Shown: piece by piece, positions 3,693 to 19,649 of the stretch
Position numbering within the stretch: the stretch's first letter is position 1
How the letters are laid out: each line of letters begins with the position of its first letter
Assembly: GCA_002700465.1 (NCBI GenBank)
Contig: PADT01000013.1
Location: 1-33,390, forward strand
Source: Flavobacteriaceae bacterium
GTDB lineage: Bacteria > Bacteroidota > Bacteroidia > Flavobacteriales > Flavobacteriaceae
Reading direction: 5' to 3'
Length of the DNA stretch: 33,390 nt
Notes under the pieces: generated by a model
The model's database searches: none
What the model saw: only the letters and a program-made list of their open reading frames with translations
Told to the model about the DNA's origin: nothing
Position numbers and translations under genes: made by a program

Positions 3693-4207
3693 TGGAAAAA
3701 AATAAATATGGAATTTGGATTAAAATTGTTTCTGTTTTAATTCCTGTTGTAGTTGCAATTTTATTTACAGTTAGAATTCCAAATGTTGAGCCATTATCTT
3801 TTTTACCACCTATATATGCTTCAATAAATGCGTTAACTGCTGTACTTTTGGTTATTGCACTAAAAGCTATTAAATCTGGCAAGCGACTATTGCATGAAAG
3901 ATTAATGAAAACTTGTATAGCATTGTCTCTAGTTTTTTTAGTTATGTATATTGCTTATCATATGACTTCAGATCCAACTCCTTTTGGTGGAGAAGGAGCT
4001 GTAGCTTACGTTTATTATTTCATACTAATCTCTCACATTTTATTATCAATAATCTTGATTCCTTTAGTATTAACAAGTTACGTAAGAGCAATTCAAGCGC
4101 AGTTTGATCCACACAAAAAGATTTCAAAAATTACTTTTCCAATTTGGCTTTATGTAGCAGTTACTGGCGTTGTAGTTTATTTAATGATTTCACCATATTA
4201 CGTATGA
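3692..4207 (+). CDS. DUF420 membrane protein, probable cytochrome oxidase assembly factor
   Basis: This 171-residue protein has five hydrophobic helices, as expected for the DUF420 family. Histidines are in family-like positions: His68 (LLHERLM), His90 (AYHMTSDPTPFGG), His115 (LISHILLS) and His131 (DPHKKI). DUF420 proteins of Firmicutes (YozB/CtaM) are needed for aa3-type oxidase activity, and the histidines suggest heme or metal contact. In this window the gene directly follows SCO and overlaps the next small gene by 4 bp (ATGA). Both facts support a biogenesis role for the oxidase encoded upstream. Family membership is clear to me by pattern; the molecular role is inferred. Confidence 0.87.
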   Translation: MEKNKYGIWIKIVSVLIPVVVAILFTVRIPNVEPLSFLPPIYASINALTAVLLVIALKAIKSGKRLLHERLMKTCIALSLVFLVMYIAYHMTSDPTPFGGEGAVAYVYYFILISHILLSIILIPLVLTSYVRAIQAQFDPHKKISKITFPIWLYVAVTGVVVYLMISPYYV

Positions 4208-4386
4208 ATTTAATGGTCTATTTATTGGATTTACAATGCGCTATGTGTAGAGCAGTACTAGAGTCTGGTGCTGACCAAAAAACAGCTGAAAGCTTAAATG
4301 ATGGGATAGTTTATTTAATGATTATTCCTTACGTTCTTGGTGGATTAACTCTGTATTTCCTCTACTTAAAGTTTTTTAAAAAGTAA
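4204..4386 (+). CDS. 60-residue CxxC membrane protein at the end of the oxidase cluster
   Basis: I choose the ATG at 4204, which overlaps the DUF420 stop as ATGA and gives 60 residues. The frame is open to an ATG at 4144, but that start would lie 64 bp inside DUF420. The protein begins with a short hydrophobic stretch, then QCAMCRAVLESG with Cys12 and Cys15, a polar middle and one strong helix (about residues 34-56) ending in lysines. Similar small CAMC proteins follow DUF420 genes in other Bacteroidota, as I remember them, usually with a longer signal-like N-terminus. The CxxC pair next to SCO and DUF420 suggests metal or thiol handling in oxidase assembly. That is inference. Confidence 0.75.
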   Translation: MNLMVYLLDLQCAMCRAVLESGADQKTAESLNDGIVYLMIIPYVLGGLTLYFLYLKFFKK

Positions 4387-4387
4387 T

Positions 4388-4417
4388 TTGTGGGTTTGTA
4401 ATTTTTTTTTACTTTTG
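4388..4417 (+). promoter_or_regulatory. Bacteroidota-type promoter of the PadR/PspC operon
   Basis: TTG at 4388-4390 is followed after 19 bp by TACTTTTG at 4410-4417, an exact TAnnTTTG -7 box with correct spacing. It starts 2 bp after the stop of the oxidase-cluster gene and faces the PadR operon. Transcription would begin within the palindromic repeats listed next. Confidence 0.75.
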
Positions 4418-4419
4418 CT

Positions 4420-4453
4420 ACTATGTAATGCATAGTACTATGCAATGTATAAT
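4420..4453 (+). promoter_or_regulatory. Tandem palindromic operator, likely for the PadR regulator
   Basis: Two adjoining 17-bp units, ACTATGTAATGCATAGT (4420-4436) and ACTATGCAATGTATAAT (4437-4453), differ at three positions. Each is an inverted repeat with a 5-bp centre, perfect arms ACTATG/CATAGT in the first and weaker arms in the second. The junction also forms a perfect 16-bp palindrome, TGCATAGTACTATGCA (4429-4444). The repeats start 2 bp after the -7 box, covering the expected transcription start, where a bound repressor would block transcription. PadR proteins are dimers that commonly bind ATG-rich palindromes, and a padR gene is in the operon, so autoregulation is the natural inference. 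Confidence 0.7.
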
Positions 4454-4548
4454 AATAGTTAGCCTTAAGTATCAAATTAAAAATATTCCATATATAGTTT
4501 GATTTAAATTATTTGATGTTTGGGGCTGAATATTTAAAAACTAAAAAA

Positions 4549-4638
4549 ATGGAATTATTATTAGATTGGAGAAATATTTTTATTGTGGCGCTTATGCTTA
4601 TAGTTTTTTTAATTAGCTATAAAACTTTAAAAAAATAA
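4549..4638 (+). CDS. Candidate 29-residue single-helix membrane microprotein
   Basis: An ATG at 4549 opens a 29-codon frame ending with TAA at 4636-4638. The product starts MELLLDWRN, continues with about 15 hydrophobic residues (IFIVALMLIVFLISY) and ends KTLKK. That is a well-formed single transmembrane segment with positive residues at the end. It is the first frame after the PadR promoter and operator, about 95 bp after the repeats and 26 bp before the lipoprotein gene, inside an otherwise unexplained leader. Small membrane partners are common in phage-shock-type systems (known for other bacteria). No homologue comes to mind, so existence as a gene is moderately supported and function is unknown. 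Confidence 0.5.
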   Translation: MELLLDWRNIFIVALMLIVFLISYKTLKK

Positions 4639-4664
4639 AAAATTATTAAATAAAAATTAAAATA

Positions 4665-4883
4665 ATGAAAAAAATACTATTACTATTATTTATTACTTTC
4701 ACATTCATTTCTTGTGGATTAGATGTAAAACCTACTGTTACAGTAAAGAATGACATTAACTTGACCATTGACGGAGAAAATATCGATGGAATTCAAGGTG
4801 AATGGATTATCTCGTCTGAAGAAAAAAAAGAAAAGGGTAAAGAGATTATTGTTATTACTATTGAAAAAAACGAAATCATATAA
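4665..4883 (+). CDS. Small lipoprotein in the PadR/PspC operon
   Basis: This 72-residue protein has a lipoprotein signal peptide: MKK, a hydrophobic stretch and the lipobox-like FISC with the acylated Cys at about residue 17. The mature part is hydrophilic, with GLDVKPTVTVKNDINLTIDGENIDG followed by a Lys/Glu-rich end (EEKKEKGKE). It is probably anchored on the periplasmic side or in the outer membrane. It lies between the candidate microprotein and padR; its stop is 6 bp before the TTG start of padR and in the same frame. I do not recognise a domain. Its place in the operon suggests it belongs to the envelope-stress function of the PspC protein, which is inference. Confidence 0.7.
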   Translation: MKKILLLLFITFTFISCGLDVKPTVTVKNDINLTIDGENIDGIQGEWIISSEEKKEKGKEIIVITIEKNEII

Positions 4884-4889
4884 TTTAAG

Positions 4890-5222
4890 TTGAGTACAGA
4901 GAATTTTAAAATACAAATTAGAAAGGGGCTTTTAGAATTCTGTGTTTTACAGATTATATCTAAAAAAGAAGTTTATGCTTCTGAAATTATTGATGAATTA
5001 AAAGGTTCTAAAATAATTGTAGTAGAGGGTACTGTTTATCCTCTTCTAAGTAGATTAAAAAAATCAGACTACATCAAACACGAATGGAAAGAATCAACTC
5101 AAGGTCCACCAAGAAAGTATTATTCGATTAGTGTTTATGGACTAGAACATTTAAAAGAGCTAATCGTTTCTTGGAGCGATATAAATAGTTCAGTAAAAGA
5201 ACTTCTTAAAACCAAAAAATGA
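4890..5222 (+). CDS. PadR family transcriptional regulator
   Basis: This 110-residue winged-helix regulator belongs to the PadR family. The family pattern is present: RKGLLEFCVLQIISKKEVYASEI for helix 1 and turn, then VEGTVYPLLSRLKKSDYI for the recognition helix, and the wing GPPRKYYSISVYGLEHL. The start is a TTG at 4890, because an in-frame stop lies 6 bp upstream (4881-4883) and the conserved N-terminus begins right after it; no ATG is available without losing helix 1. The gene sits in an operon with a two-PspC-domain membrane protein, an arrangement familiar in Bacteroidota. It probably represses its own promoter through the tandem palindrome at 4420-4453. Confidence in the family is high; the regulon is inferred. 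Confidence 0.93.
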   Translation: MSTENFKIQIRKGLLEFCVLQIISKKEVYASEIIDELKGSKIIVVEGTVYPLLSRLKKSDYIKHEWKESTQGPPRKYYSISVYGLEHLKELIVSWSDINSSVKELLKTKK

Positions 5223-5296
5223 AAAAACTATTTCTTTTATTATTGGAATTTAAGATAAATCTTTTAAAGAAAATTTTAAAATGGTTTAGGGATTAA
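5219..5296 (+). CDS. Candidate 25-residue amphipathic microprotein, coupled to padR
   Basis: An ATG at 5219 overlaps the padR stop (ATGA) and opens 25 codons up to TAA at 5294-5296, leaving only 10 bp to the PspC-protein gene. The product starts MKKLFLLLLEFKINLL and ends in a Lys/Arg/Trp-rich part (KKILKWFRD). It is hydrophobic with basic residues spaced as in a membrane-surface helix. The exact stop-start overlap and the way it fills the 84-bp gap between two operon genes argue for translation. Its short length and AT-rich codons allow chance. Function unknown. Confidence 0.42.
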   Translation: MKKLFLLLLEFKINLLKKILKWFRD

Positions 5297-5306
5297 AAAA
5301 AAAAAA

Positions 5307-6581
5307 ATGAAAAAAACACTTACAATAAACATAGGACACTCCATTTTTAACATTGAAGAAGACGCTTATGAAATATTGAACAAATATTTAGATTCAATTA
5401 AAAATTATTTTAAAAAAATTGATAATGATTCAGAAATAATTAAAGATTTCGAATTAAGAATTGCAGAAAATTTTTCAGCTAAAGTTTCACCGATAAAGCA
5501 ATGTATTGATTTAAGTGATGTTAAAGAAGTCATTAAGATAATGGGATCTTTAGACGATTTTAAAGAGATTTATGATGATACTGAAACAGAAAATGTAAAC
5601 GAAGAGAAAAAAACAAACAATAAACTTTTTAGAGATTCTAGCAATAGAGTTATTGCAGGAGTTTGTTCTGGAATAGCTGAATATTTTAGAATTGATCCAA
5701 TAATTGTAAGGGTTTTATTTTTTATAGCAGTTCCATTGAATTTAATTGTGTACATAATATTTTGGATAGGGATTCCATCAAAAGATTTTGACCCTGACCT
5801 TAGAAAAATACTTTACAGGGATAAAGAGAATGGAGTAATAGGAGGTGTAGCAAAAGGACTATCAAATTATCTTAAAATTGATGCCAATATAATAAGAGTA
5901 ATCTTTATTGTGAGTTTATTTTTTGGTGGCGCAGGATTATTATTCTATTTTTTATTGTGGCTTTTTACTAAAGAGGCTAAAACAATAGGTGAAAAAATGA
6001 ATATGTCGGGCTTTAATGTTAATCTATCTAATGTTGAAGACTTCATTAAAAAAAAAACCAAAAATCTAAACAGTCCTGAAAACACTTTAACTAAGGTTTT
6101 TTTATTTCCCTTCAGACTATTGGCTCCACTGATTAATGCCTTTTTAAAGATTGGAGTTTTCGTTTTTAAAATAATATTCTTTATATTTTCTTCAATATTT
6201 ATTGTTTTTATTTCTATTTTATTAGTTGTTTTTTCAACTATATCATTTAAAGATATAAGTCCAGAACAAGACCCTAAATTTCATGAACTATTAAATGCTA
6301 TCCCTGATTACTTTGCGATATTTTCAGTGGTTTTCTTACTGCTTACAATTATAATTTCTGTTATTATTTCGTTTTATGTATTGTTTAAAAAGAAATCAAA
6401 TTCTTATTTTTTTATGGTATTAATTTTTTTGTGGATAGCCTTTTTAACCCTTATTATGATTTCATTACCAAATATAATTTTAAACATGCAAGATTTAAAT
6501 TTGCTGCCAAACTGGATTGATGGTAACTATTCTTTTATTTGGAAATGGAATGATGGTATAATGCTAAATAAAAATAATTAG
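5307..6581 (+). CDS. Membrane protein with two PspC domains
   Basis: This 424-residue inner-membrane protein has an N-terminal cytoplasmic region (about 1-105, sensor-like, starting TLTINIGHSIFNIEEDAYEIL) and then two consecutive PspC domains. Domain 1 spans about 107-157 (KLFRDSSNRVIAGVCSGIAEYF); domain 2 spans about 170-221 (LYRDKENGVIGGVAKGLSNYL). Each has the R-D-x-x-N-x-V-I-x-G-V motif and a hydrophobic hairpin. Three or more further helices fill residues 265-405. PspC domains act in phage-shock-type envelope stress responses in other bacteria, where they sense or transmit membrane stress. It is the last and largest gene of the PadR operon. Many relatives carry a further C-terminal soluble domain that I do not see here. 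Confidence 0.9.
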   Translation: MKKTLTINIGHSIFNIEEDAYEILNKYLDSIKNYFKKIDNDSEIIKDFELRIAENFSAKVSPIKQCIDLSDVKEVIKIMGSLDDFKEIYDDTETENVNEEKKTNNKLFRDSSNRVIAGVCSGIAEYFRIDPIIVRVLFFIAVPLNLIVYIIFWIGIPSKDFDPDLRKILYRDKENGVIGGVAKGLSNYLKIDANIIRVIFIVSLFFGGAGLLFYFLLWLFTKEAKTIGEKMNMSGFNVNLSNVEDFIKKKTKNLNSPENTLTKVFLFPFRLLAPLINAFLKIGVFVFKIIFFIFSSIFIVFISILLVVFSTISFKDISPEQDPKFHELLNAIPDYFAIFSVVFLLLTIIISVIISFYVLFKKKSNSYFFMVLIFLWIAFLTLIMISLPNIILNMQDLNLLPNWIDGNYSFIWKWNDGIMLNKNN

Positions 6582-6590
6582 GTTTATAAA

Positions 6591-6609
6591 ATAAACTAGT
6601 TTATATTTG
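6591..6609 (+). promoter_or_regulatory. Promoter -7 box with overlapping 14-bp palindrome
   Basis: TATATTTG at 6602-6609 fits the Bacteroidota -7 consensus and is 16 bp before the ATG at 6626. A perfect palindrome, ATAAACTAGTTTAT (6591-6604), overlaps its first three bases, so a bound protein would block the promoter. The winged-helix regulator encoded by the second gene of this pair is a candidate ligand. The -33 region shows only TTT, not TTG. In such AT-rich DNA the palindrome could be chance. Confidence 0.5.
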
Positions 6610-6625
6610 TACTTTAAAAAATATT

Positions 6626-7195
6626 ATGACAAAAGAAGAACAATTAAGTATTATTAATGATACAATTAAGAAGACTAAATATAATTTAAAACCTCTTGGA
6701 TATAATCTTGTCTTTTGGGGTGTTTTGATAATTACAATGAGCTTATTTCATTACTTTTTTCCCCAGATAGTTCAAATCACTTATTACTCCTCTTTAATAT
6801 ATTGGGTAGCTATTCCATTACTTGGAATGGTTTATACAACCTATTATAATATAAATTCAGGAAATAAATTGGGATATGAAACGCAACTAGGAAGAGTCAT
6901 TAGAATTATATGGGCGGTTTTTGGATTGTCTTGGATTTCAATAGTTGTTCTAAATCTATTGCATGATGCCAATCCAGTTCAAGACATATTATTTTTGTTA
7001 AGTACAGTTTTAATTATGTCTGGAGTTATAATAAGATTCAAACCCGTTACTTTCGGTGGTGTAGGATTATTAATTTTTACTATTTACACATATTATGTTC
7101 CTGATATTAATTTTCTTTTAGTAAATGTAGTTGGAATTACTTTTGGAATGTTGATCCCTGGTTTAGCTCTTTATCTTCTGAAAAAAGATGAATAA
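6626..7195 (+). CDS. Multi-pass membrane protein next to a winged-helix regulator
   Basis: This 189-residue protein begins with a cytoplasmic segment (TKEEQLSIINDTIKKTKYNL) followed by about six helices: residues 27-45, 55-72, 89-107, 119-135, 140-157 and 161-184. It ends KKDE. No catalytic motif is visible. It resembles unnamed Bacteroidota membrane proteins paired with small ArsR/MarR-like or HTH_34-type regulators, here the next gene, which it overlaps by 8 bp. The pairing suggests a two-gene unit in which the regulator controls, or is controlled by, the membrane protein. I cannot give a function. It has its own TAnnTTTG promoter, so it need not belong to the PspC operon. Confidence 0.75.
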   Translation: MTKEEQLSIINDTIKKTKYNLKPLGYNLVFWGVLIITMSLFHYFFPQIVQITYYSSLIYWVAIPLLGMVYTTYYNINSGNKLGYETQLGRVIRIIWAVFGLSWISIVVLNLLHDANPVQDILFLLSTVLIMSGVIIRFKPVTFGGVGLLIFTIYTYYVPDINFLLVNVVGITFGMLIPGLALYLLKKDE

Positions 7196-7475
7196 GGAGA
7201 CAGAAAAATTACTGTTTAATCCTATTAGACTTAAAACAATATCTTTTTTGATGACTGTAGAGACGTGTACTTTTAAGGCACTTCTTAATGTTACCGCCTC
7301 TAGTAAAGGAAATTTAAGTGTTCAATTAAAGAAGTTAAATGAGGCAGGATTAATAAATATTGAAAAGTATTTTCAAAAAAGCTATCCTACAACAGATTAC
7401 TCAATAACAAAAAAAGGAAAGGATTCATTTGAAGAGTTTTATAAACAACTAATATCCCTACAAATAAAAAAGTAA
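7188..7475 (+). CDS. Winged-helix transcriptional regulator (HTH_34/MarR-like)
   Basis: This 95-residue single-domain winged-helix protein has helix 1 FNPIRLKTISFLM, a helix-turn-helix with CTFKALLNVTASSKGNLSVQLKKLNEAGLI, and a wing ending in SYPTTDYSITKKGKDSFEEF. This is the layout of small regulators that bind DNA as dimers (PF13601-like). It overlaps the preceding membrane-protein gene by 8 bp, so the two are translated together. The palindrome at 6591-6604 over the promoter of the pair is a candidate operator. The downstream MacB-like cassette, 118 bp away, could also be a target, but nothing in the sequence proves this. Confidence 0.85.
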   Translation: MNKETEKLLFNPIRLKTISFLMTVETCTFKALLNVTASSKGNLSVQLKKLNEAGLINIEKYFQKSYPTTDYSITKKGKDSFEEFYKQLISLQIKK

Positions 7476-7593
7476 AGTAAACATTACATTATGAATAATT
7501 TTTATAAATTTGGATACCCAAAAAATTTAAAATTAAATACCAATTAAACTTTGGGCACATTTATTGATCTAAATATGGTAACAACTAACAATT

Positions 7594-8286
7594 ATGATTA
7601 AAATAAACGACTTACATAAGTCCTATAAAATGGGCTCAAACTCTTTGCACGTTTTAAAAGGAATTAATTTTGATGTTGAAGAGGGTGAACTTGTAGCGAT
7701 TATGGGATCATCAGGATCTGGTAAATCAACCCTTTTAAATATTCTTGGGATGTTGGACTTATTAGATAAAGGTTCGTATGATTTAGATGGGGTACCGATA
7801 AAAGATTTAGATGAAACCAAAGCAGCTAATTATAGAAATAAATTCTTAGGATTTGTATTTCAATCTTTTAATTTGATTAATTATAAAACTGCACTTGAAA
7901 ACGTAACACTTCCTTTATATTATCAGGGAGTCAAAAGAAAAGAAAGAGAAGCATTAGCATTAGAATATTTAGATAATGTCGGTTTAAAAGAATGGGCTAC
8001 TCATTTACCAAGTGAATTATCTGGTGGACAAAAACAAAGAGTTGCAATTGCTCGGGCACTTGTATCTAAACCAAAAGTTTTATTAGCTGATGAGCCAACA
8101 GGTGCTTTAGATTCGACAACTTCCAAGGAGGTTATGGCTTTAATACAAGAAATAAACAAAAATGGTAAAACAATTTTAATTGTAACTCACGAGGAAGATA
8201 TTGCTAAAATGTGTTCTAGAATAGTAAGGTTAAAAGACGGAATTATTGTTGAAGACAAAAAAAATAAAATGCAAAAAGCTATTTAA
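7594..8286 (+). CDS. ABC transporter ATP-binding protein, MacB/LolD type
   Basis: This 230-residue ATPase energises the export cassette. All motifs are intact: Walker A GSSGSGKS (38-45), Q-loop Gln90 (FVFQSFNL), signature LSGGQ (142-146), Walker B KVLLADEPTG (Asp166, Glu167), D-loop ALD and H-loop His199 (VTHEED). The length and the FVFQSFNLI and DEPTGALDS segments place it with MacB/LolD/FtsE-like mechanotransmission ATPases rather than importers. It is the first gene of a five-gene cassette; the first permease begins directly after its stop. The 118 bp upstream hold a weak promoter-like AAACTTTG (7546-7553), one base off TAnnTTTG. Confidence 0.95.
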   Translation: MIKINDLHKSYKMGSNSLHVLKGINFDVEEGELVAIMGSSGSGKSTLLNILGMLDLLDKGSYDLDGVPIKDLDETKAANYRNKFLGFVFQSFNLINYKTALENVTLPLYYQGVKRKEREALALEYLDNVGLKEWATHLPSELSGGQKQRVAIARALVSKPKVLLADEPTGALDSTTSKEVMALIQEINKNGKTILIVTHEEDIAKMCSRIVRLKDGIIVEDKKNKMQKAI

Positions 8287-9519
8287 ATGTTTAGTAGAGA
8301 CCGTTGGCTAGAAATATTTGAAACTATTAGAAAGAATAAGCTTAGAACTTTTCTATCTGGTTTTACTGTGGCTTTAGGAATTTTAATTTTTGTCGTATTG
8401 TTTGGTTTTGGAAATGGTCTTAAAAATACTTTTGACAAATTTTTCAAGGATGATGCTTTAAACACTATGTGGGTAAGACCTAGCAGAACTTCTAAACCAT
8501 ACATGGGCTATGAAGCTAATAGAAGAATAGAATTGATTAATGCTGATCTTGAAGACGTCTCTAAAAGATTTGAATTTTATATCGAAGGAATAACTCCCAG
8601 GATATCCTTTAGCGGGACTGTGGGATACAAGTTAGAATCTAATAATTATCCAATAAGAGGAGTTGGTCCATCTCATAAAAATAATGAGATGACCATTATG
8701 ATGAAAGGAAGATTTATTAATGGGTTAGATGTTGATAATAAAGAGCGAAACGTAGTTATTGGAAGACTAGTTGAACAGGACTTATTCAAAGACGATGATG
8801 CTATTGGTAAATTTATATCAGGTGGAGGAAGATCTTGGAAAGTAGTTGGTGTTTTTCAAGATGATGGTGGAGACAATGAAGAAAGAATTATTTATGCACC
8901 TTACACCACAATTCAAATGATTCAAAAAGGTACCGACGATATTGGTCAAATGATTATTTCGTATAAACCTGAAATTGGATATGCAGGAGCTGTTGCGTTT
9001 GAAAAACAATTAAAAAAATATTTAAAGCAAAAAAAGTTTATTGATCCAACTGATCCAAGAGGCCTTTTTATTAGAAGTGCAGCTTCAGACCTCAAAGAAA
9101 ATGATCAATTTACATCTGTTTTGCAATATATCATATCATTTGTAGGGATTGGAACTCTTTTAGCTGGAATAATAGGGATTTCAAATATTATGGTTTTTGT
9201 TGTTAAAGAAAGAACCAAAGAGCTTGGTGTAAGAAAAGCAATAGGAGCTACTCCAAAATCAATTGTAGGCATGATATTACATGAGGCAATTTTTATTACT
9301 ACTATTTCCGGATACTTTGGTTTATTTGTAGGAATTGCTTTTTTAAATTTTATAGGTGATAAATTAGAAGAAGATTATTTTATAACTAACCCATATATAG
9401 ATTTTTCAACAGGTGTATCAGCTACTATTTTATTAATAGCATTTGGAGCTTTTGCAGGCTATTTACCTGCAAAAAGAGCAGCGAGTATAAAACCCATAGA
9501 AGCCTTAAGAGACGATTGA
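8287..9519 (+). CDS. MacB-like ABC transporter permease, first of two
   Basis: This 410-residue permease of the MacB/FtsX superfamily starts at the base after the ATPase stop. It has a cytoplasmic amphipathic N-terminus (WLEIFETIRKNKLRTFL), helix 1 (about 24-42), a large periplasmic MacB_PCD domain (about 45-275) and three C-terminal helices. Between helices 2 and 3 lies the coupling segment VKERTKELGVRKAIGATP that contacts the ATPase, and the protein ends PAKRAASIKPIEALRDD. Both are family hallmarks. It is paralogous to the next gene, so the transporter is probably a heterodimer of the two permeases with two copies of the ATPase. The cassette likely exports a peptide, lipid or toxic compound; the substrate cannot be read from the sequence. 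Confidence 0.94.
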   Translation: MFSRDRWLEIFETIRKNKLRTFLSGFTVALGILIFVVLFGFGNGLKNTFDKFFKDDALNTMWVRPSRTSKPYMGYEANRRIELINADLEDVSKRFEFYIEGITPRISFSGTVGYKLESNNYPIRGVGPSHKNNEMTIMMKGRFINGLDVDNKERNVVIGRLVEQDLFKDDDAIGKFISGGGRSWKVVGVFQDDGGDNEERIIYAPYTTIQMIQKGTDDIGQMIISYKPEIGYAGAVAFEKQLKKYLKQKKFIDPTDPRGLFIRSAASDLKENDQFTSVLQYIISFVGIGTLLAGIIGISNIMVFVVKERTKELGVRKAIGATPKSIVGMILHEAIFITTISGYFGLFVGIAFLNFIGDKLEEDYFITNPYIDFSTGVSATILLIAFGAFAGYLPAKRAASIKPIEALRDD

Positions 9520-9520
9520 T

Positions 9521-10786
9521 ATGAAAAGATTATTTGATAAAGACACTTGGCAAGAGATTTTTGGTTCAATCCAAAAAAACAAAATAAGAACTATTATCAC
9601 AATGATTGGAGTCTTATGGGGTATCTTTATTTACATTGCTCTTTCTGGTTCTTCAAAGGGACTTGACAATGGTTTTGAAAGACAATTTCAGTCTATAGCT
9701 TCTAATAGTATTTTTGTTTGGGCCCAATCTACAAGTCTTCCTTACGCTGGTTATAAATCTGAGAGAAACATAATACTAAAAATTCAAGACGCAGAAGTTT
9801 TAAAAAAGCAAGTCAAAAACATAAAGTTTATAGCTCCAAGAATTGTCGCTGGTGTTTTTGGTGATCAAGGTGGAAGTATTGTTAGAGGAACAAAAACAGG
9901 AACATATTCAGTCTATGGAGAGTACCCAGAATATATAAAAATTGCTACCTCAAAAATTTATGATGGAGGGAGGTTTATAAACCAATCAGATATTGAAGAT
10001 GATAGGAAAGTTTGTGTTATTGGTGAAAGAACTCAATTAGAACTTTTTGAAGACGACGAGGATCCAATAGGAAAATTTATTAGTATAAATAAAATTAATT
10101 TTAGAGTTGTTGGAGTTCACAAATTTGTTCAAGGTGGAGGTTTTGGTGACGATGGGGATATTTACATACCATTTACAACTTTTAAAAAAATATTTAATAC
10201 AGGTGATAGAGTTGGGTTTTTTATGATTGCTGCTGATGAAGATGCCGATGGAGTTAAAGTTGAAAAGGATATTAAGGCAACATTAAAACAAATTCATAAA
10301 ATTGATCCAAATGATGAAAGAGCTATCGGAGGGTTTAATTTAGGAGAGATATTTAGAAAGACCATGAACTTTGCTAATGGTTTAACATTTTTATCCTTAG
10401 TAGTTGGTATAGCCACAATTTTAGCAGGAATCATAGGTATTGGAAACATATTACTTATTTCAGTAAAAGAAAGAACTAAAGAAATTGGAATTAGAAGAGC
10501 ATTAGGAGCTACACCTGCTGAAGTAAGGTCTCAAATCATTTTAGAATCTGTTTTTTTGACAATACTGGCTGGAGTGATTGGAATAATTTTAGGAGCATTA
10601 GTTTTATATGGAATTAATGCAGCTACTATGGATCAAACTGATTTTCCATATACCAATCCTACCGTTCCAATACCATATGTTCTTGGAGCTTTAGCTTTAA
10701 TGGTATTGCTTGGAACACTAATAGGAATCATACCAGCTCAAAGAGCTGTTAGCATAAAACCAATTGACGCATTAAGAGAAGAATAA
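9521..10786 (+). CDS. MacB-like ABC transporter permease, second of two
   Basis: This 421-residue paralogue of the preceding permease has the same layout: N-terminal DTWQEIFGSIQKNKIRTII, helix 1 (about 25-43), a periplasmic MacB_PCD domain, then three helices with the coupling segment VKERTKEIGIRRALGATPAE and the end PAQRAVSIKPIDALREE. It lies 1 bp after the first permease. The periplasmic domains of the two differ considerably, while the coupling loop and C-terminal ends are nearly alike, as expected for two permeases working with one ATPase. The adaptor gene follows after 25 bp. Confidence 0.94.
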   Translation: MKRLFDKDTWQEIFGSIQKNKIRTIITMIGVLWGIFIYIALSGSSKGLDNGFERQFQSIASNSIFVWAQSTSLPYAGYKSERNIILKIQDAEVLKKQVKNIKFIAPRIVAGVFGDQGGSIVRGTKTGTYSVYGEYPEYIKIATSKIYDGGRFINQSDIEDDRKVCVIGERTQLELFEDDEDPIGKFISINKINFRVVGVHKFVQGGGFGDDGDIYIPFTTFKKIFNTGDRVGFFMIAADEDADGVKVEKDIKATLKQIHKIDPNDERAIGGFNLGEIFRKTMNFANGLTFLSLVVGIATILAGIIGIGNILLISVKERTKEIGIRRALGATPAEVRSQIILESVFLTILAGVIGIILGALVLYGINAATMDQTDFPYTNPTVPIPYVLGALALMVLLGTLIGIIPAQRAVSIKPIDALREE

Positions 10787-10811
10787 ACAGAATAACAATT
10801 AATTATATAAC

Positions 10812-11939
10812 ATGAAATATTTAAAATACATAGGAATTGCTGCCCTTATTGGGGGAGTTTTATTTGCAACTGCTTTTTTTATTAAATCCAATAGCACGTC
10901 ATCTATTGTCTACGATACTCAGACTTTAATTACAGCTACAATTGAAGATAAAATTGTTGCAACTGGAAAAGTTTTGCCAGAAGATGAGGTAAATATAGTT
11001 CCACAAATTGCAGGAATAATTCAAGAGATTTTAGTTGAAGAAGGTGATGAACTTTCTGCTGGAGATTTAATTGCAAGAATTAAAGTAGTTCCTAACGAAC
11101 AGACACTTAATAGTGCAGAAGGTAGAGTGAAGAGCGCACAAATAGTATTAAAAAATTCTAAAATTGAGTTTGAAAGAAATAAAGCACTATTTTCTAAAGA
11201 AATTATTTCTGAGCAAGATTTTAATTCCGTAACACTTAGGTATAATCAAGACATGCAAAATTTGTCTAATGCTAAAAGTGATTTACAAATAATTAAATTA
11301 GGATCATCTGGAGGATCTACAATTACAAATACAAATGTTAGAGCTACTGTTTCAGGAACAATTTTAGAAATTCCTGTAAAGGAAGGAGATCAAGTAATTC
11401 AAGCCAATACATTTAATGCAGGTACTACAATAGCTACTATAGCTGATCTAGATAAAATGATTTTTGAAGGTCAGGTTGATGAAGGTGAGGTCGGAAAACT
11501 TTCAGTTGATATGCCACTAATAATAACATTAGGAGCAATTGAGGGAAAGGAGTATGAGGCTAAGCTTAAATTAATATCACCAAAAGGTACTGAAGTAGGA
11601 GGAGCAATTCAATTTAAAATTGAAGGAGAAGTTTACTTAGATGATGAGTATGTAATAAGAGCTGGCTACAGTGCAAATGCTTCGATAGTTTCGGAAAGAA
11701 AAGTCGACGTAATTGCAATTAGCGAGGCCTTACTGCAATATGATTCAAAAACTAAAAAACCATATGTAGAAATTGAAACTTCCAATCAAAAATTTAAAAG
11801 ACAAGATGTTAAATTAGGTATTTCTGATGGAGTTAATGCAGAGTTAATTTCGGGAGTTTCAAAAACTGATAAAATTAAAGTTTGGAATAAAACTGAACCA
11901 GATAAAAGAGGTGAGGTAGAAGACAATGGATGGAATTAG
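10812..11939 (+). CDS. Periplasmic adaptor (HlyD/RND membrane fusion family) of the MacB-like pump
   Basis: This 375-residue adaptor links the inner-membrane permeases to the outer-membrane channel. It has an N-terminal anchor (about residues 4-24). The first lipoyl half-motif is near residues 52-95 (GKVLPEDEVNIVPQIAGIIQ, then VEEGDELSAGDLIARI). A helical hairpin with coiled-coil character follows at about 98-165 (LNSAEGRVKSAQIVLKNSKIE). The second lipoyl half is near 175-215 (RATVSGTILEIPVKEGDQVI), then beta-barrel and membrane-proximal domains. This order is typical of MacA-like proteins. It follows the permeases and overlaps the longest possible TolC frame by 14 bp, although the preferred TolC start lies 22 bp downstream of its stop. 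Confidence 0.94.
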   Translation: MKYLKYIGIAALIGGVLFATAFFIKSNSTSSIVYDTQTLITATIEDKIVATGKVLPEDEVNIVPQIAGIIQEILVEEGDELSAGDLIARIKVVPNEQTLNSAEGRVKSAQIVLKNSKIEFERNKALFSKEIISEQDFNSVTLRYNQDMQNLSNAKSDLQIIKLGSSGGSTITNTNVRATVSGTILEIPVKEGDQVIQANTFNAGTTIATIADLDKMIFEGQVDEGEVGKLSVDMPLIITLGAIEGKEYEAKLKLISPKGTEVGGAIQFKIEGEVYLDDEYVIRAGYSANASIVSERKVDVIAISEALLQYDSKTKKPYVEIETSNQKFKRQDVKLGISDGVNAELISGVSKTDKIKVWNKTEPDKRGEVEDNGWN

Positions 11940-11961
11940 ACAATTAAAATCTAAAATAATT

Positions 11962-13380
11962 ATGAAAAAATTTGTAATAATATTTTTGGCTGTATTGTAT
12001 TCTGGGAATCAATATTCACAAGAACCATGGACTTTAGAAGCATGCGTGAATAGAGCTTTAGAAATGAATATTTCAATTAAACAATCTCAATTAGAATATG
12101 CAGGTTCAGAAATAGATAAAAAAGGTGCTATTGGAAACTTTCTTCCAAACATTAATATTGGAAGTAGTCATTCTTGGAATGTTGGCTTAAATCAAAATAT
12201 CACAACTGGTCTTTTAGAAAATTTTACAACTCAATTTTCTTCAATGAATCTAAATTTAAATGTTAATTTATATAATGGGTTACAAAATGTAAAAAGATTA
12301 CACAGGGCTAATCTAGCTATTCTAGCAAGTCAATATCAACTAGAGGATATGACAGAAAATGTTGCTCTTAGAGTGGCAAATTCATATTTACAGATACTGT
12401 TTAGTAAAGAGTCTTTAGCTGTGCAAAAGTTACAATTGGAAATAACTAAAAAAGAGTTAACCAGAGTAAAAGAATTAGTAGATGGCGGAGTTGTTCCAAA
12501 AGGAGATGTATATGAAATTGAAGCCAATTTAGCTTCTCAAGAAAAAAATGTTGTTGATGCTCAAAATGCATATTTTCTTTCAAAAATTGCTCTTGCTCAG
12601 CTCATACTAATTGACGATTATGAAAACTTTGAAATTGCCAATGAGTCCTATGATATTCCCATTGCCAATATTTTAAATAAAACAGCGACTGAAATATTTA
12701 ATTATGCAGTTGGAAATAAAAAGGATATAAAGATTAGCGAAACAAATGTAGAGATTGCTAAAAAAGATCTAGAGCTTTCTAAGTCGTTATTACAACCAAG
12801 ACTATCCGCATTTTATTCTTACAGTACAAGAATCGGTTATAGTGATAGAGTAGTTCCAACTGGCGAATTTGGAACAAGTACTATTGGTTTTGTTGAGAGC
12901 ACAAACGAAAAAGTTATTGCACCCTTTCCAATTTATAAAAGTGAAAAACCATTATCTTTTTCTGAACAATTTGATTTGAATGCTGGTCAAAACTTTGGAC
13001 TTAGTCTTTCTATTCCAATTTTAAATAATTTATCTAATAGAACAAACGTCGATAGAACTAAAGTAAATATTTTAAGAAGTATTAATTCTTTAGAGCAAAA
13101 AAAATTAGATTTAGAAAACACAGTAAATCAATCTTATAATGATGCTAAAGGCGCTTATAAAGCTTATGTGGCTTCTCAGAAATTAGTTAAAGCTAGAAAT
13201 TCAGCTTTTGAGTATGCACAAAGCAAATTCGAAGTTGGAGCTATGAACTCATTTGATTTTACTCAGGCAAAACAGAGATTTGAATTAGCACAGTCTGAAC
13301 TCATTAGAACTAAATACGATTATATTTTTAAGCTTAAAGTATTAGAATTTTATTTTGGAGTTCCAATTTCGGTAAATTAA
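11962..13380 (+). CDS. TolC-like outer membrane efflux protein
   Basis: This outer-membrane channel of the MacB-like pump has 472 residues from the ATG at 11962. I prefer this start because it gives a clean signal peptide (MKKFVIIFLAVLYSGNQYSQ). The in-frame ATG at 11926 would add 12 charged residues before it and overlap the adaptor gene. Two OEP repeats are visible: the first starts WTLEACVNRALEMNISIKQS and has a GGVVPKGDVYEIEANLASQ segment; the second starts near NYAVGNKKDIKISETNVEIA and has a FEVGAMNSFDFTQAKQRFELA segment. Each repeat is two long helices plus barrel strands. The stop is immediately followed by the tsaB start with no spacer (TAAATG). Confidence 0.93.
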   Translation: MKKFVIIFLAVLYSGNQYSQEPWTLEACVNRALEMNISIKQSQLEYAGSEIDKKGAIGNFLPNINIGSSHSWNVGLNQNITTGLLENFTTQFSSMNLNLNVNLYNGLQNVKRLHRANLAILASQYQLEDMTENVALRVANSYLQILFSKESLAVQKLQLEITKKELTRVKELVDGGVVPKGDVYEIEANLASQEKNVVDAQNAYFLSKIALAQLILIDDYENFEIANESYDIPIANILNKTATEIFNYAVGNKKDIKISETNVEIAKKDLELSKSLLQPRLSAFYSYSTRIGYSDRVVPTGEFGTSTIGFVESTNEKVIAPFPIYKSEKPLSFSEQFDLNAGQNFGLSLSIPILNNLSNRTNVDRTKVNILRSINSLEQKKLDLENTVNQSYNDAKGAYKAYVASQKLVKARNSAFEYAQSKFEVGAMNSFDFTQAKQRFELAQSELIRTKYDYIFKLKVLEFYFGVPISVN

Positions 13381-17063: not shown

Positions 17064-19649
17064 CTAAAAGTTTTGTCCGATTACAAAATGTGTTTCCCAC
17101 CCGTGAGCATTAAGATCTCCAGCAAATTGACTATCAAATCCGTATCCAAAGTCAATACCTAGAAGTCCAAATGCCGGCATGAAAATACGTATTCCTAGAC
17201 CTGCAGATCTTTTAGCGTTGAAGGGATTAAATTCTCTAAAACTATTATACCCATTCCCAGATTCAAGAAATGTTAATGCAAATATGGAAGCACTTGGTTT
17301 TAAAGTTATTGGATATCTTAATTCTAATGAAAATTTATTATAAATAGTAGATCCGTCTTGACTTGATAGCGATTGGTTTGTGTATCCTCTTAATGCAACT
17401 GTTTCTCTACCGTCCATAGCGTATTGTGACATTCCATCTCCTCCAAGATAAAACCTGTCAAATGGAATAATTCCTCTTTTATTGTTGTAAGCTCCTAAAA
17501 ATCCAAATTCAGCATGAGTTTTTAAAACAAATTTGTCAATTAATCTAGTATACCAAGTTCCGTTAAATTTTACTTTATAAAACTCTAACCACTTAAATTT
17601 TTCTTGATCAATTTTAGCTTGGTCAGGTTCACCATCTTCATTTTGATATTCTGCCTGATTTTCTAAATCGTCATAATCAATGTCATTAAACAATGAATAC
17701 GGTAATGAAAGTTTTGCACTTATTGCAAATTGAGATCCACCCAGTGGAAAAACTGGATTTACGAAAGTATTATCTCTTGCTAGAATGACTTGATAAAAAA
17801 TATTATTTGACTTCCCATCACCAAAAGTAAATAAACCTGTGTAATAATTACTCAAATTATAGTATTGATAACCAATAGATTGACTGAGCTGAAAATAATC
17901 ATCAGGAACTCTTAATTTTTTAGCAAGCCCAATTTGTGCGCCGGTTATTTCAAAAAATTGATTCTTATTTGCTTGACCAGTGAAGTAGTCGTATCTATAT
18001 TGTTTAGTTCTAGAAATAGAGGTTGAAAATGAAACAGGTTGTCTTCCTCCAAGCCATGGTTCTGAAAAAGAAAAACTGGCAGTATTATAAAACCTATTAG
18101 CTTGAAGTCTTACAGAAAGAGCCTGTCCATCTCCCATTGGAAGAGGTTTGTATGCTGATTTATCTTTTAGACCTCTTACAGAAAAATTATTAAATGACAA
18201 ACCTAAAGTTCCAATAAAGCCACCTCCACCGTATCCTCCTTGAAGCTCCACTTGACTTGCACCTTTTTCTACAAGGCCGTATTCAATATCTACAGTTCCA
18301 GCATTTGGATCAACATTTTTAAAATCTGGACTAATTTGTTCAGGATCAAAAAATCCCATTTGGCCAAGTTCTCGTACTGTTCTAACAATTTGAGATTTAC
18401 TGTAGATGTTTCCAGGCTTAGTTCTTAATTCACGATAGATAACGTGATCATTAGTTCTTGTATTTCCAACAACAGTTATCTTATTAAAATAAGCAGGCTT
18501 TCCTTCAACAACTCTAATTTCAAAATTTATAGTATCATTTTCAACAGAAACTTCGACTGGATTTATATTAGAAAATAAATATCCGTTGTTTTGGTATAAA
18601 TTTGATAAATCTTCACCATCAGGTTTTGTGTTGTCAGATATTCTTTTCTTTAATAAAACACCATTGTAAGTGTCTCCCTTGAAAAGACCTAAAGCTCTAG
18701 AAAGCTGTGCATCTGAATAGACTGAGTTACCAAGAAATGAAATATCTCCAAAATAATACTTATTACCTTCTTGTAAATCTATATTAATTGTTATTTTATT
18801 TTTATCTGTAATAACAGAATCTGTAATTATTCTAGCGTCACGATAACCTTTTTCTTTGTAAAAATCTAAGATTGATTTTAAATCTTCTTTATATTCTTTT
18901 TCTATGAATTTTGACTTTTTCCAAAACCTTCCTAACAGTTTTGTTTTTGTCTTTTTCATCTTCTTTTTTAATTTGGAAGATTTAGTGACTTCATTTCCAG
19001 TAAAATTAATCTGGTCAATTTTAACTCTGTCCCCAAGATCAACTTTAATTAACATTTTACTAAAATTAACTTCGCTTGAATCTGGTAATATGTTTATTGA
19101 GACTTTAGTATTTAAAAAACCATCTTTTTTATATTTATTTATAATATAATTTTTAGTAGTTTTTATAAAATTTTCAGTTATTTTCTTTCCTTTCTTAAGT
19201 TCAGTTTCTGAAACTATAGTTTCAATTTTTGATTTTTTTAATCCGGTAATTTTAAATTCTGAAAGAGTAGGTAACTCAATAATATCAATTTGTATACTAG
19301 CTTCTCCATTTTGAACGTTAGTTAAGTAAAAATTTATATCACTAAATAAGTCTAGTTTCCAAAGTTTACTTATTATCGCACTTATTTCTTCACCTGGAAT
19401 TCTAATTTTCTGCCCTTCCTTAAGTCCAGTATAAGTAATTACCGTTTGTTCATTAAAGTTTTTTAGACCTGAAACGGAAACCTCTTTTAAAATGTATTCA
19501 TTTCCTTTAATATAGGCAGTTTCTTGGGCTACAGAATTAAAACTAAATAATGCAGTAAAAAATATTAATAAATAATTAATACTGCTAGCAAGGCTTTTTT
19601 TATTACTAATTAATTTTTCCAAATCTTCTTTCTCTTTTTTGATAATCAT
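17064..19649 (-). CDS. bamA: BamA, outer membrane protein assembly factor (Omp85)
   Basis: This 861-residue Omp85 protein is the core of the BAM complex that inserts beta-barrels into the outer membrane. After a signal peptide (about residues 18-41, ending SVAQ) there are tandem POTRA domains, for example LKEVSVSGLKNFNEQTV near 53 and FNKITVVGNTRTNDHVIYRE near 390, and then a barrel from about 465. The barrel contains the L6-type motif ALRGY (VRGF/Y equivalent) and ends in aromatic F (IGQNF), the usual insertion signal. The only ATG gives a 44-bp overlap with uppS and charged residues before the signal peptide. A TTG at 19622 (codon 10) is a plausible alternative start. Confidence 0.95.
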   Translation of the reverse strand: MIIKKEKEDLEKLISNKKSLASSINYLLIFFTALFSFNSVAQETAYIKGNEYILKEVSVSGLKNFNEQTVITYTGLKEGQKIRIPGEEISAIISKLWKLDLFSDINFYLTNVQNGEASIQIDIIELPTLSEFKITGLKKSKIETIVSETELKKGKKITENFIKTTKNYIINKYKKDGFLNTKVSINILPDSSEVNFSKMLIKVDLGDRVKIDQINFTGNEVTKSSKLKKKMKKTKTKLLGRFWKKSKFIEKEYKEDLKSILDFYKEKGYRDARIITDSVITDKNKITINIDLQEGNKYYFGDISFLGNSVYSDAQLSRALGLFKGDTYNGVLLKKRISDNTKPDGEDLSNLYQNNGYLFSNINPVEVSVENDTINFEIRVVEGKPAYFNKITVVGNTRTNDHVIYRELRTKPGNIYSKSQIVRTVRELGQMGFFDPEQISPDFKNVDPNAGTVDIEYGLVEKGASQVELQGGYGGGGFIGTLGLSFNNFSVRGLKDKSAYKPLPMGDGQALSVRLQANRFYNTASFSFSEPWLGGRQPVSFSTSISRTKQYRYDYFTGQANKNQFFEITGAQIGLAKKLRVPDDYFQLSQSIGYQYYNLSNYYTGLFTFGDGKSNNIFYQVILARDNTFVNPVFPLGGSQFAISAKLSLPYSLFNDIDYDDLENQAEYQNEDGEPDQAKIDQEKFKWLEFYKVKFNGTWYTRLIDKFVLKTHAEFGFLGAYNNKRGIIPFDRFYLGGDGMSQYAMDGRETVALRGYTNQSLSSQDGSTIYNKFSLELRYPITLKPSASIFALTFLESGNGYNSFREFNPFNAKRSAGLGIRIFMPAFGLLGIDFGYGFDSQFAGDLNAHGWETHFVIGQNF

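Follow-up and report, generated by a model that had tools for sequence, protein, structure and literature searches.

cdPadR1, a short PadR protein (PadR-s2) of C. difficile R20291 (PDB 5DYM), binds inverted repeats of the form TACT(N11-12)AGTA in its own promoter in EMSA, and fragments without such repeats are not bound (PMC5050560). That paper describes two separate repeats in the cdPadR1 promoter, predicts about 200 further motif matches in the genome, and proposes autoregulation. The relatives 5DYM and LftR are reported to be dimers that bind inverted-repeat DNA (PMC5050560, PMC6457526). HAAS-PadR-like wHTH systems, which are linked to PspC, have been suggested to provide, in membrane stress, an alternative to two-component signalling (PMC11237479). 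In Listeria, the PadR protein LstR represses an operon for which the ECF sigma factor SigC is needed as well, with the genes for both proteins located in one operon (PMC6624303).

The window analysed here is the whole stretch of 33,390 nucleotides from a member of the Flavobacteriaceae (contig PADT01000013.1). It carries a padR gene with the following promoter, repeat and gene features.

4387-4390, forward strand: -33 promoter element TTTG, read directly, with a 19-bp spacer to the -7 box
4410-4417, forward strand: -7 promoter element TACTTTTG, read directly
4419-4437, no strand: O1, the main predicted PadR operator, TACTATGTAATGCATAGTA, TACT-N11-AGTA, 27.7 bits; motif conserved upstream of padR
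4429-4444, no strand: junction palindrome TGCATAGTACTATGCA, perfect, 16 bp
4436-4454, no strand: O2, an overlapping weaker operator copy, TACTATGCAATGTATAATA, 16.9 bits; left half kept in congeners
4549-4638, forward strand: possible small membrane-peptide ORF of 29 aa, the first ORF of the transcript, from translation only
4665-4883, forward strand: small lipoprotein-like ORF of 72 aa, with a lipobox-like ISCG seen by eye
4890-5222, forward strand: padR (TTG start), encoding a short winged-helix repressor of 110 aa that is proposed to bind O1; Pfam PadR scores 63.9 bits against a cut-off of 27
5307-6581, forward strand: membrane protein with two PspC stretches (PspC 1.5e-38) and an N-terminal domain resembling HAAS; a proposed sensor partner of PadR
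6626-7195, forward strand: membrane protein of no family (no Pfam match at E ≤ 1)
7188-7475, forward strand: second winged-helix regulator, HTH_34, overlapping the previous gene (Pfam HTH_34 70.1 bits, cut-off 27)

Judged by its sequence, the encoded regulator is a short PadR (PadR-s2 or PadR-2). The family profile matches PDB 5h20 over residues 1-106 (1.5e-48), an entry that we take to be BF2549, the PadR-like factor of Bacteroides fragilis, and that is probably an ortholog of the window PadR with a solved structure. The match of the profile to cdPadR1 (5dym) is weaker, 1.1e-15, and the relation between these two sequences is distant. Residues Y29 and Y50 are invariant in a 19-row PadR alignment and are taken as the two signature tyrosines, counterparts of Y28 and Y48 of LftR (PMC6457526).

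As in the HAAS-PadR systems, a stand-alone padR lies beside the gene for a PspC membrane protein (PMC11237479). The N-terminus of this protein resembles HAAS below threshold. Pfam HAAS reaches 13.8 bits in it against a cut-off of 27, and another family scores better; in relatives, HAAS scores 17.0-22.8 bits in three of four, against the same cut-off, and gives no match in the fourth. An AlphaFold model of the domain (pLDDT 85) has no PDB fold match at E ≤ 0.001. The 72-aa ORF has no Pfam match at E ≤ 1, and a protein that resembles it by eye precedes padR in two related loci (L162 and L260). The gene at 6626-7195 probably belongs to the same transcript, and no terminator-like site was found in 4000-7600. 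The HTH_34 gene follows the PspC cluster and precedes an ABC-transporter/HlyD gene cluster at 7594-13380.

Promoter and repeats at 4387-4454

An earlier note on this DNA had placed a full -33/-7 promoter before two near-identical 17-bp tandem units, with a perfect 16-bp palindrome across their junction, and direct reading confirms each of these features. The two units, TACTATGTAATGCATAG at 4419-4435 and TACTATGCAATGTATAA at 4436-4452, lie head to tail and are identical at 14 of 17 positions, and the palindrome occupies 4429-4444. The gap after the -7 box is a single base, C4418, and not the 2 bp originally stated. In near congeners, TTTG or TTG is found by eye at or near the same distance, though the spacer varies. 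The -7 box TACTTTTG is presumably of the Bacteroidota TAnnTTTG type.

While the repeats are real, the conserved unit is a 19-bp operator (O1) overlapping a weaker copy (O2), and not two equal 17-bp sites; the junction palindrome is a by-product of the 2-bp overlap between O1 and O2. O1, located in the padR operon promoter directly after the -7 box, fits the TACT(N11-12)AGTA class that a PadR protein binds in vitro (PMC5050560), and the motif was defined from Bacteroidota alone before it was compared with this class. The window and the cdPadR1 system have in common a short PadR, TACT/AGTA repeats, an AT-rich core and a proposed autoregulation (PMC5050560). In contrast to the two separate repeats and many predicted matches of cdPadR1, the window possesses a single strong operator that a partial copy overlaps, and its partial genome contains no other exact match.

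The repeats were compared with 2000 dinucleotide-preserving shuffles of 4387-4549. A 17-bp tandem with at least 14/17 identity was obtained in 5 shuffles, a perfect palindrome of at least 16 bp in 57, and the two together in none. Because a tandem of any period from 12 to 25 at 82% or more arose in 107 shuffles, the tandem alone, without prior knowledge, is modest evidence; the features are unlikely but not overwhelmingly so, and it is conservation that makes the case. With the operator matrix from relatives, the two top sites of the window are those at 4419 and 4436, with the scores listed above; the third reaches 2.8 bits, and the best score in 20 shuffled windows was 9.4 bits. The window contains five perfect palindromes of at least 14 bp, among them one other of 16 bp, TGAAACTATAGTTTCA at 19209-19224.

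The genome-wide scan for further copies, suggested in the earlier note, was run on the genome of the window itself (1.18 Mb in 75 contigs, 67% complete). No exact match to TACTATGYAATGYATA was found in this partial genome besides the two units, so that no second target is visible there; three further places match at 2 mismatches. A search of viral contigs for relatives found none.

Conservation and position of the operator

The window padR is matched in 114 of 120 Flavobacteriaceae genomes, in one of them (G022) at paralog level. Upstream regions were read at 110 loci, 30 from the search and 80 fetched, with G059, G082 and G112 left out; in G059 and G082, an operator lies about 630-650 bp upstream of padR among the matches listed by a pattern search. 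A symmetric matrix was built from 29 of the first 30 loci, and the maximum of a control of 110 shuffles of two-base blocks, 10.6 bits, served as its mark. The matrix was later rebuilt from 108 sites, keeping marks of 10.6 bits for loci of the genus and 9.4 bits for named phylum loci.

An operator above 10.6 bits, with the 19-bp consensus TACTATGYnnnRCATARTA, is present upstream of padR at 108 of the 110 family loci, and it was found at 79 of the 80 loci held out of matrix building. Its right arm often reads AATA. The misses are L017, with 85 bp of upstream sequence, and L119, in which a one-mismatch site lies 2039 bp upstream, past the stretch read. Comparison of padR upstream regions across relatives therefore revealed conservation of the operator, whereas the earlier note had named a lack of it as evidence against its reading. 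A simple pattern test gave matches in 108 of 113 family genomes with an ortholog and 1 of 7 without, but the reversed control matches many genomes and this test is not relied on.

The recognition region of PadR reads VVEGT in 192 of 194 rows, some genomes being represented twice. The exceptions, VAEGT in L259 and AVEGT in L260, both come from congeners with a degraded operator in the same place, and the padR genes of these genomes (G275 and G286) are intact, with TAA as the stop at residue 108-109. This covariation is compatible with co-evolution of recognition region and operator but, with two genomes, may be drift; best sites below 10 bits also occur with 13 VVEGT rows, in some owing to short upstream DNA.

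At 105 of the 108 family loci with an operator, a TAnnTTTG box follows a single strong operator by 12-14 bp (exactly 14 bp in 97), so the operator would cover the -33 region and not the start. The -7 box directly precedes the operator only at the two loci of the window's genus, and one further locus has neither layout. The layout in this genus is thus unusual: the operator immediately follows the -7 box, and an additional half-site stands 17 bp further on. The placing of the site over the transcription start, as originally noted, agrees with the predicted start for O1 of the window but does not extend to the family. At 89 of the 108 loci, for example L033, an 11-bp direct repeat of the TGTTAA-N5-TGTTAA type starts 23-24 bp before the operator; it resembles what we take to be an OmpR/PhoB-type response-regulator site, and it is absent at the two loci of the window's genus.

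Among 22 genomes of the genus, 19 possess padR. The operator exceeds 10.6 bits in 16 of these 19 (9.3 in L258, and -1.7 and -2.0 in two others), and TAnnTTTG directly precedes it in 16. The full left half-site TACTATG (7/7) recurs at +17 in 15 of the 19, and the right half of the second unit is kept at 5/7 or better in 6, with the L259 values entered as 0 in the second-unit counts. In the family, TACTATG at +17 is confined to 2 of the 108 loci, both from this genus; the loci L147-L162 and those of the genus overlap in species and were counted apart. The -7 box also precedes the operator in L167 and L169, whose PadRs are about 60% identical to that of the window. In L162/L262, a single genome whose PadR is 75% identical to that of the window, the -7 box precedes a weak first unit (9.8 bits), after which come three others of 23.2, 23.2 and 12.6 bits at 17-, 21- and 21-bp steps. 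This array of four operator-like units spans 1500-1577 of L262, which corresponds to the start of L162. The first codons of a long ORF (MQNKISTMQNKIRIMQNKIK...) share their reading frame with the 21-bp repeats of L262, so that its initial residues would be encoded by the operator copies as well.

Beyond the family, 51 of 67 named loci fall outside L147-L162. The best upstream site exceeds 9.4 bits at 43 of the 51, including records from Flavobacteriales, Cytophagales and Bacteroidales, and is at or below this mark at 8, one of which has 138 bp of upstream sequence. The -7 box follows the operator by 10-14 bp at 18 of the 51 (exactly 14 at 12) and directly precedes it at 2, and TAnnTTTG is found at neither place at 23. 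In many Cytophagales and Bacteroidales records, no more than about 110 bp separate the operator from the padR start. In the marine MED-G11 and related records L163, L165, L166 and L168, it occupies -30 to -12 relative to the start of padR and could also cover the ribosome-binding site.

The co-occurrence of operator and gene was examined in 158 genomes of the phylum, including that of the window, with a padR ortholog defined as a match at E 2.3e-43 or better and an extended operator allowed up to 1 mismatch. The extended operator is present in 31 of 38 genomes with the ortholog and in 6 of 120 without it (Fisher 2.8e-20), and a reversed control pattern in 4 of the 158. For 28 of the 38, the distance from the site to the padR gene downstream of it is 25-1178 bp. 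In G152, G172 and G187 the listed match lies elsewhere than upstream of padR, and no extended operator was found in 7 of the 38.

Probable autorepression and competing explanations

Based on this evidence, 4419-4454 is very probably the operator of the PadR protein encoded about 440 bp downstream, which would repress its own padR-PspC membrane-stress operon. Autorepression by the PadR of the same operon, as the earlier note had proposed, is well supported both by conservation of the site upstream of padR orthologs and by the in vitro binding of this motif class by cdPadR1 (PMC5050560). The site belongs to a known kind, the autoregulatory PadR operator; new within the literature searched are its reach across the phylum, its shifted position and the second operon described below. 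No description of this operator in Bacteroidota was recognised in that literature, outside which most subscription papers fall. To the HAAS-PadR systems, for which the main text of the comparative-genomics paper names no operator, the present analysis adds a predicted DNA site, its reach and its position (PMC11237479).

A PadR dimer on O1, after the -7 box and over the predicted start, would turn the padR-PspC operon off by blocking open-complex formation or promoter escape, while in relatives a dimer over the -33 region would exclude sigma. Both positions fit repression better than activation; a site shifted in this way would be hard to reconcile with the continued function of an activator. 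O2, as a half-site or weak copy, may raise occupancy, perhaps via a second dimer. The 17 bp between O1 and O2 amount to 1.6 turns with 2 bp shared, which would place two dimers on roughly opposite faces of the DNA. O2 is read as an aid to occupancy and not as a second full site because mainly its left half is kept. By analogy with the HAAS-PadR pair, the PspC/HAAS-like membrane protein might lift PadR off the site under membrane stress (PMC11237479).

The earlier note had envisaged two near-identical 17-bp units occupied by two adjacent regulator dimers, or a single dimer that shifts to the junction; as a model, this would mean two equal sites and graded repression. Such a model seems rather unlikely, though parts of it agree with the sequence: both units are present in the window, as is the perfect 16-bp palindrome at their junction, the score of O2 is above the 9.4 bits of the best shuffled window, and the four units in L262 indicate that expansion of arrays occurs in this clade. 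Two dimers might occupy O1 and O2. That the two sites are equal, however, is unsupported, since the right half of O2 is kept in so few congeners (6 of 19) and the TACTATG at +17 is almost absent from the family. The shift to the junction is the weak part of this explanation and was rejected: the half-sites of the palindrome are everted (CATAGTA..TACTATG, as opposed to TACTATG..CATAGTA in the operator), and the palindrome is perfect at only 7 of 16 clade loci.

Another regulator, such as the HTH_34 protein encoded at 7188-7475 or a global factor, could bind the palindrome, with padR in the operon by chance. A second winged-helix gene does end the same cluster, and in relatives the operator also precedes other genes. 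However, the operator tracks the padR ortholog across the phylum (31/38 against 6/120 genomes), lies close to the padR start in many Cytophagales and Bacteroidales, and has the arms bound by another PadR (PMC5050560), which makes this explanation improbable. Least probable is that the palindromes act as a hairpin at the 5' end of the mRNA, in stability or attenuation, and this candidate was rejected. A stem of 6 bp closed by a 4-base loop can be drawn from GCAUAGUACUAUGC at the predicted mRNA 5' end, but folding of the 60-nt RNA was not more stable than that of shuffled sequences (z 0.43), 129 of 200 of which folded equally well or better. At 9 of 16 clade loci the junction stem has imperfections although the operator is conserved, and at 105 of 108 family loci the operator precedes the -7 box and hence falls outside the predicted transcript. 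No Rfam family reached its gathering score in 4100-5400; one match, at E 0.35, is at chance level.

A possible second target in relatives

Autorepression by PadR may not be the only use of this operator. In relatives, the same operator is also found before a different promoter type, characterised by GTAAC and CGTC elements, which is followed by between one and three genes, often in tandem, for a 28-residue protein, MRTLNxNQLT...WNxKRRYR (L037-L047, L049-L052, L056, L214-L243). The GTAAC and CGTC elements presumably constitute an ECF-sigma-type promoter. An operator is present within 600 bp upstream at 27 of 30 loci of the 28-residue protein, the exceptions being L225, L229 and L242. Matches to the protein at E ≤ 0.01, several of them weak, occur in 53 of 120 family genomes, with none in G000 or G004; the one copy that was compared with NCBIfam gave no hit at E ≤ 0.1. 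LstR and SigC provide a precedent for such a second target, although in Listeria the PadR and sigma genes share one operon while in the relatives described here the ECF-like promoter belongs to the separate operon of the 28-residue protein (PMC6624303).

We tentatively suggest, as a reading with somewhat less than an even claim, that these elements form an ancient envelope-stress regulon of the Bacteroidota. One PadR, through one strongly conserved 19-bp operator, would act on its own PspC operon and, in many Flavobacteriaceae, on a tandem operon for the 28-residue protein; this second operon would additionally require an ECF sigma factor and an activator of the OmpR type. In the marine genus of the window, the operator would have left the -33 region for the start site and afterwards been multiplied (1.5 to 4 copies) with the circuit kept. 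A repressor site that moved across the -7 box with the rest of its circuit unchanged would amount to a natural experiment on promoter evolution. The shared operator also points to an apparently undescribed family of 28-residue proteins in the same response. In addition, the analysis supplies a predicted operator, kept over much of the phylum, for a PadR-PspC system for which the comparative-genomics paper names none (PMC11237479). In L048 and L053, at about position 1500, the operator also precedes large ORFs with N-termini that resemble signal peptides by eye, and these perhaps encode outer-membrane proteins.
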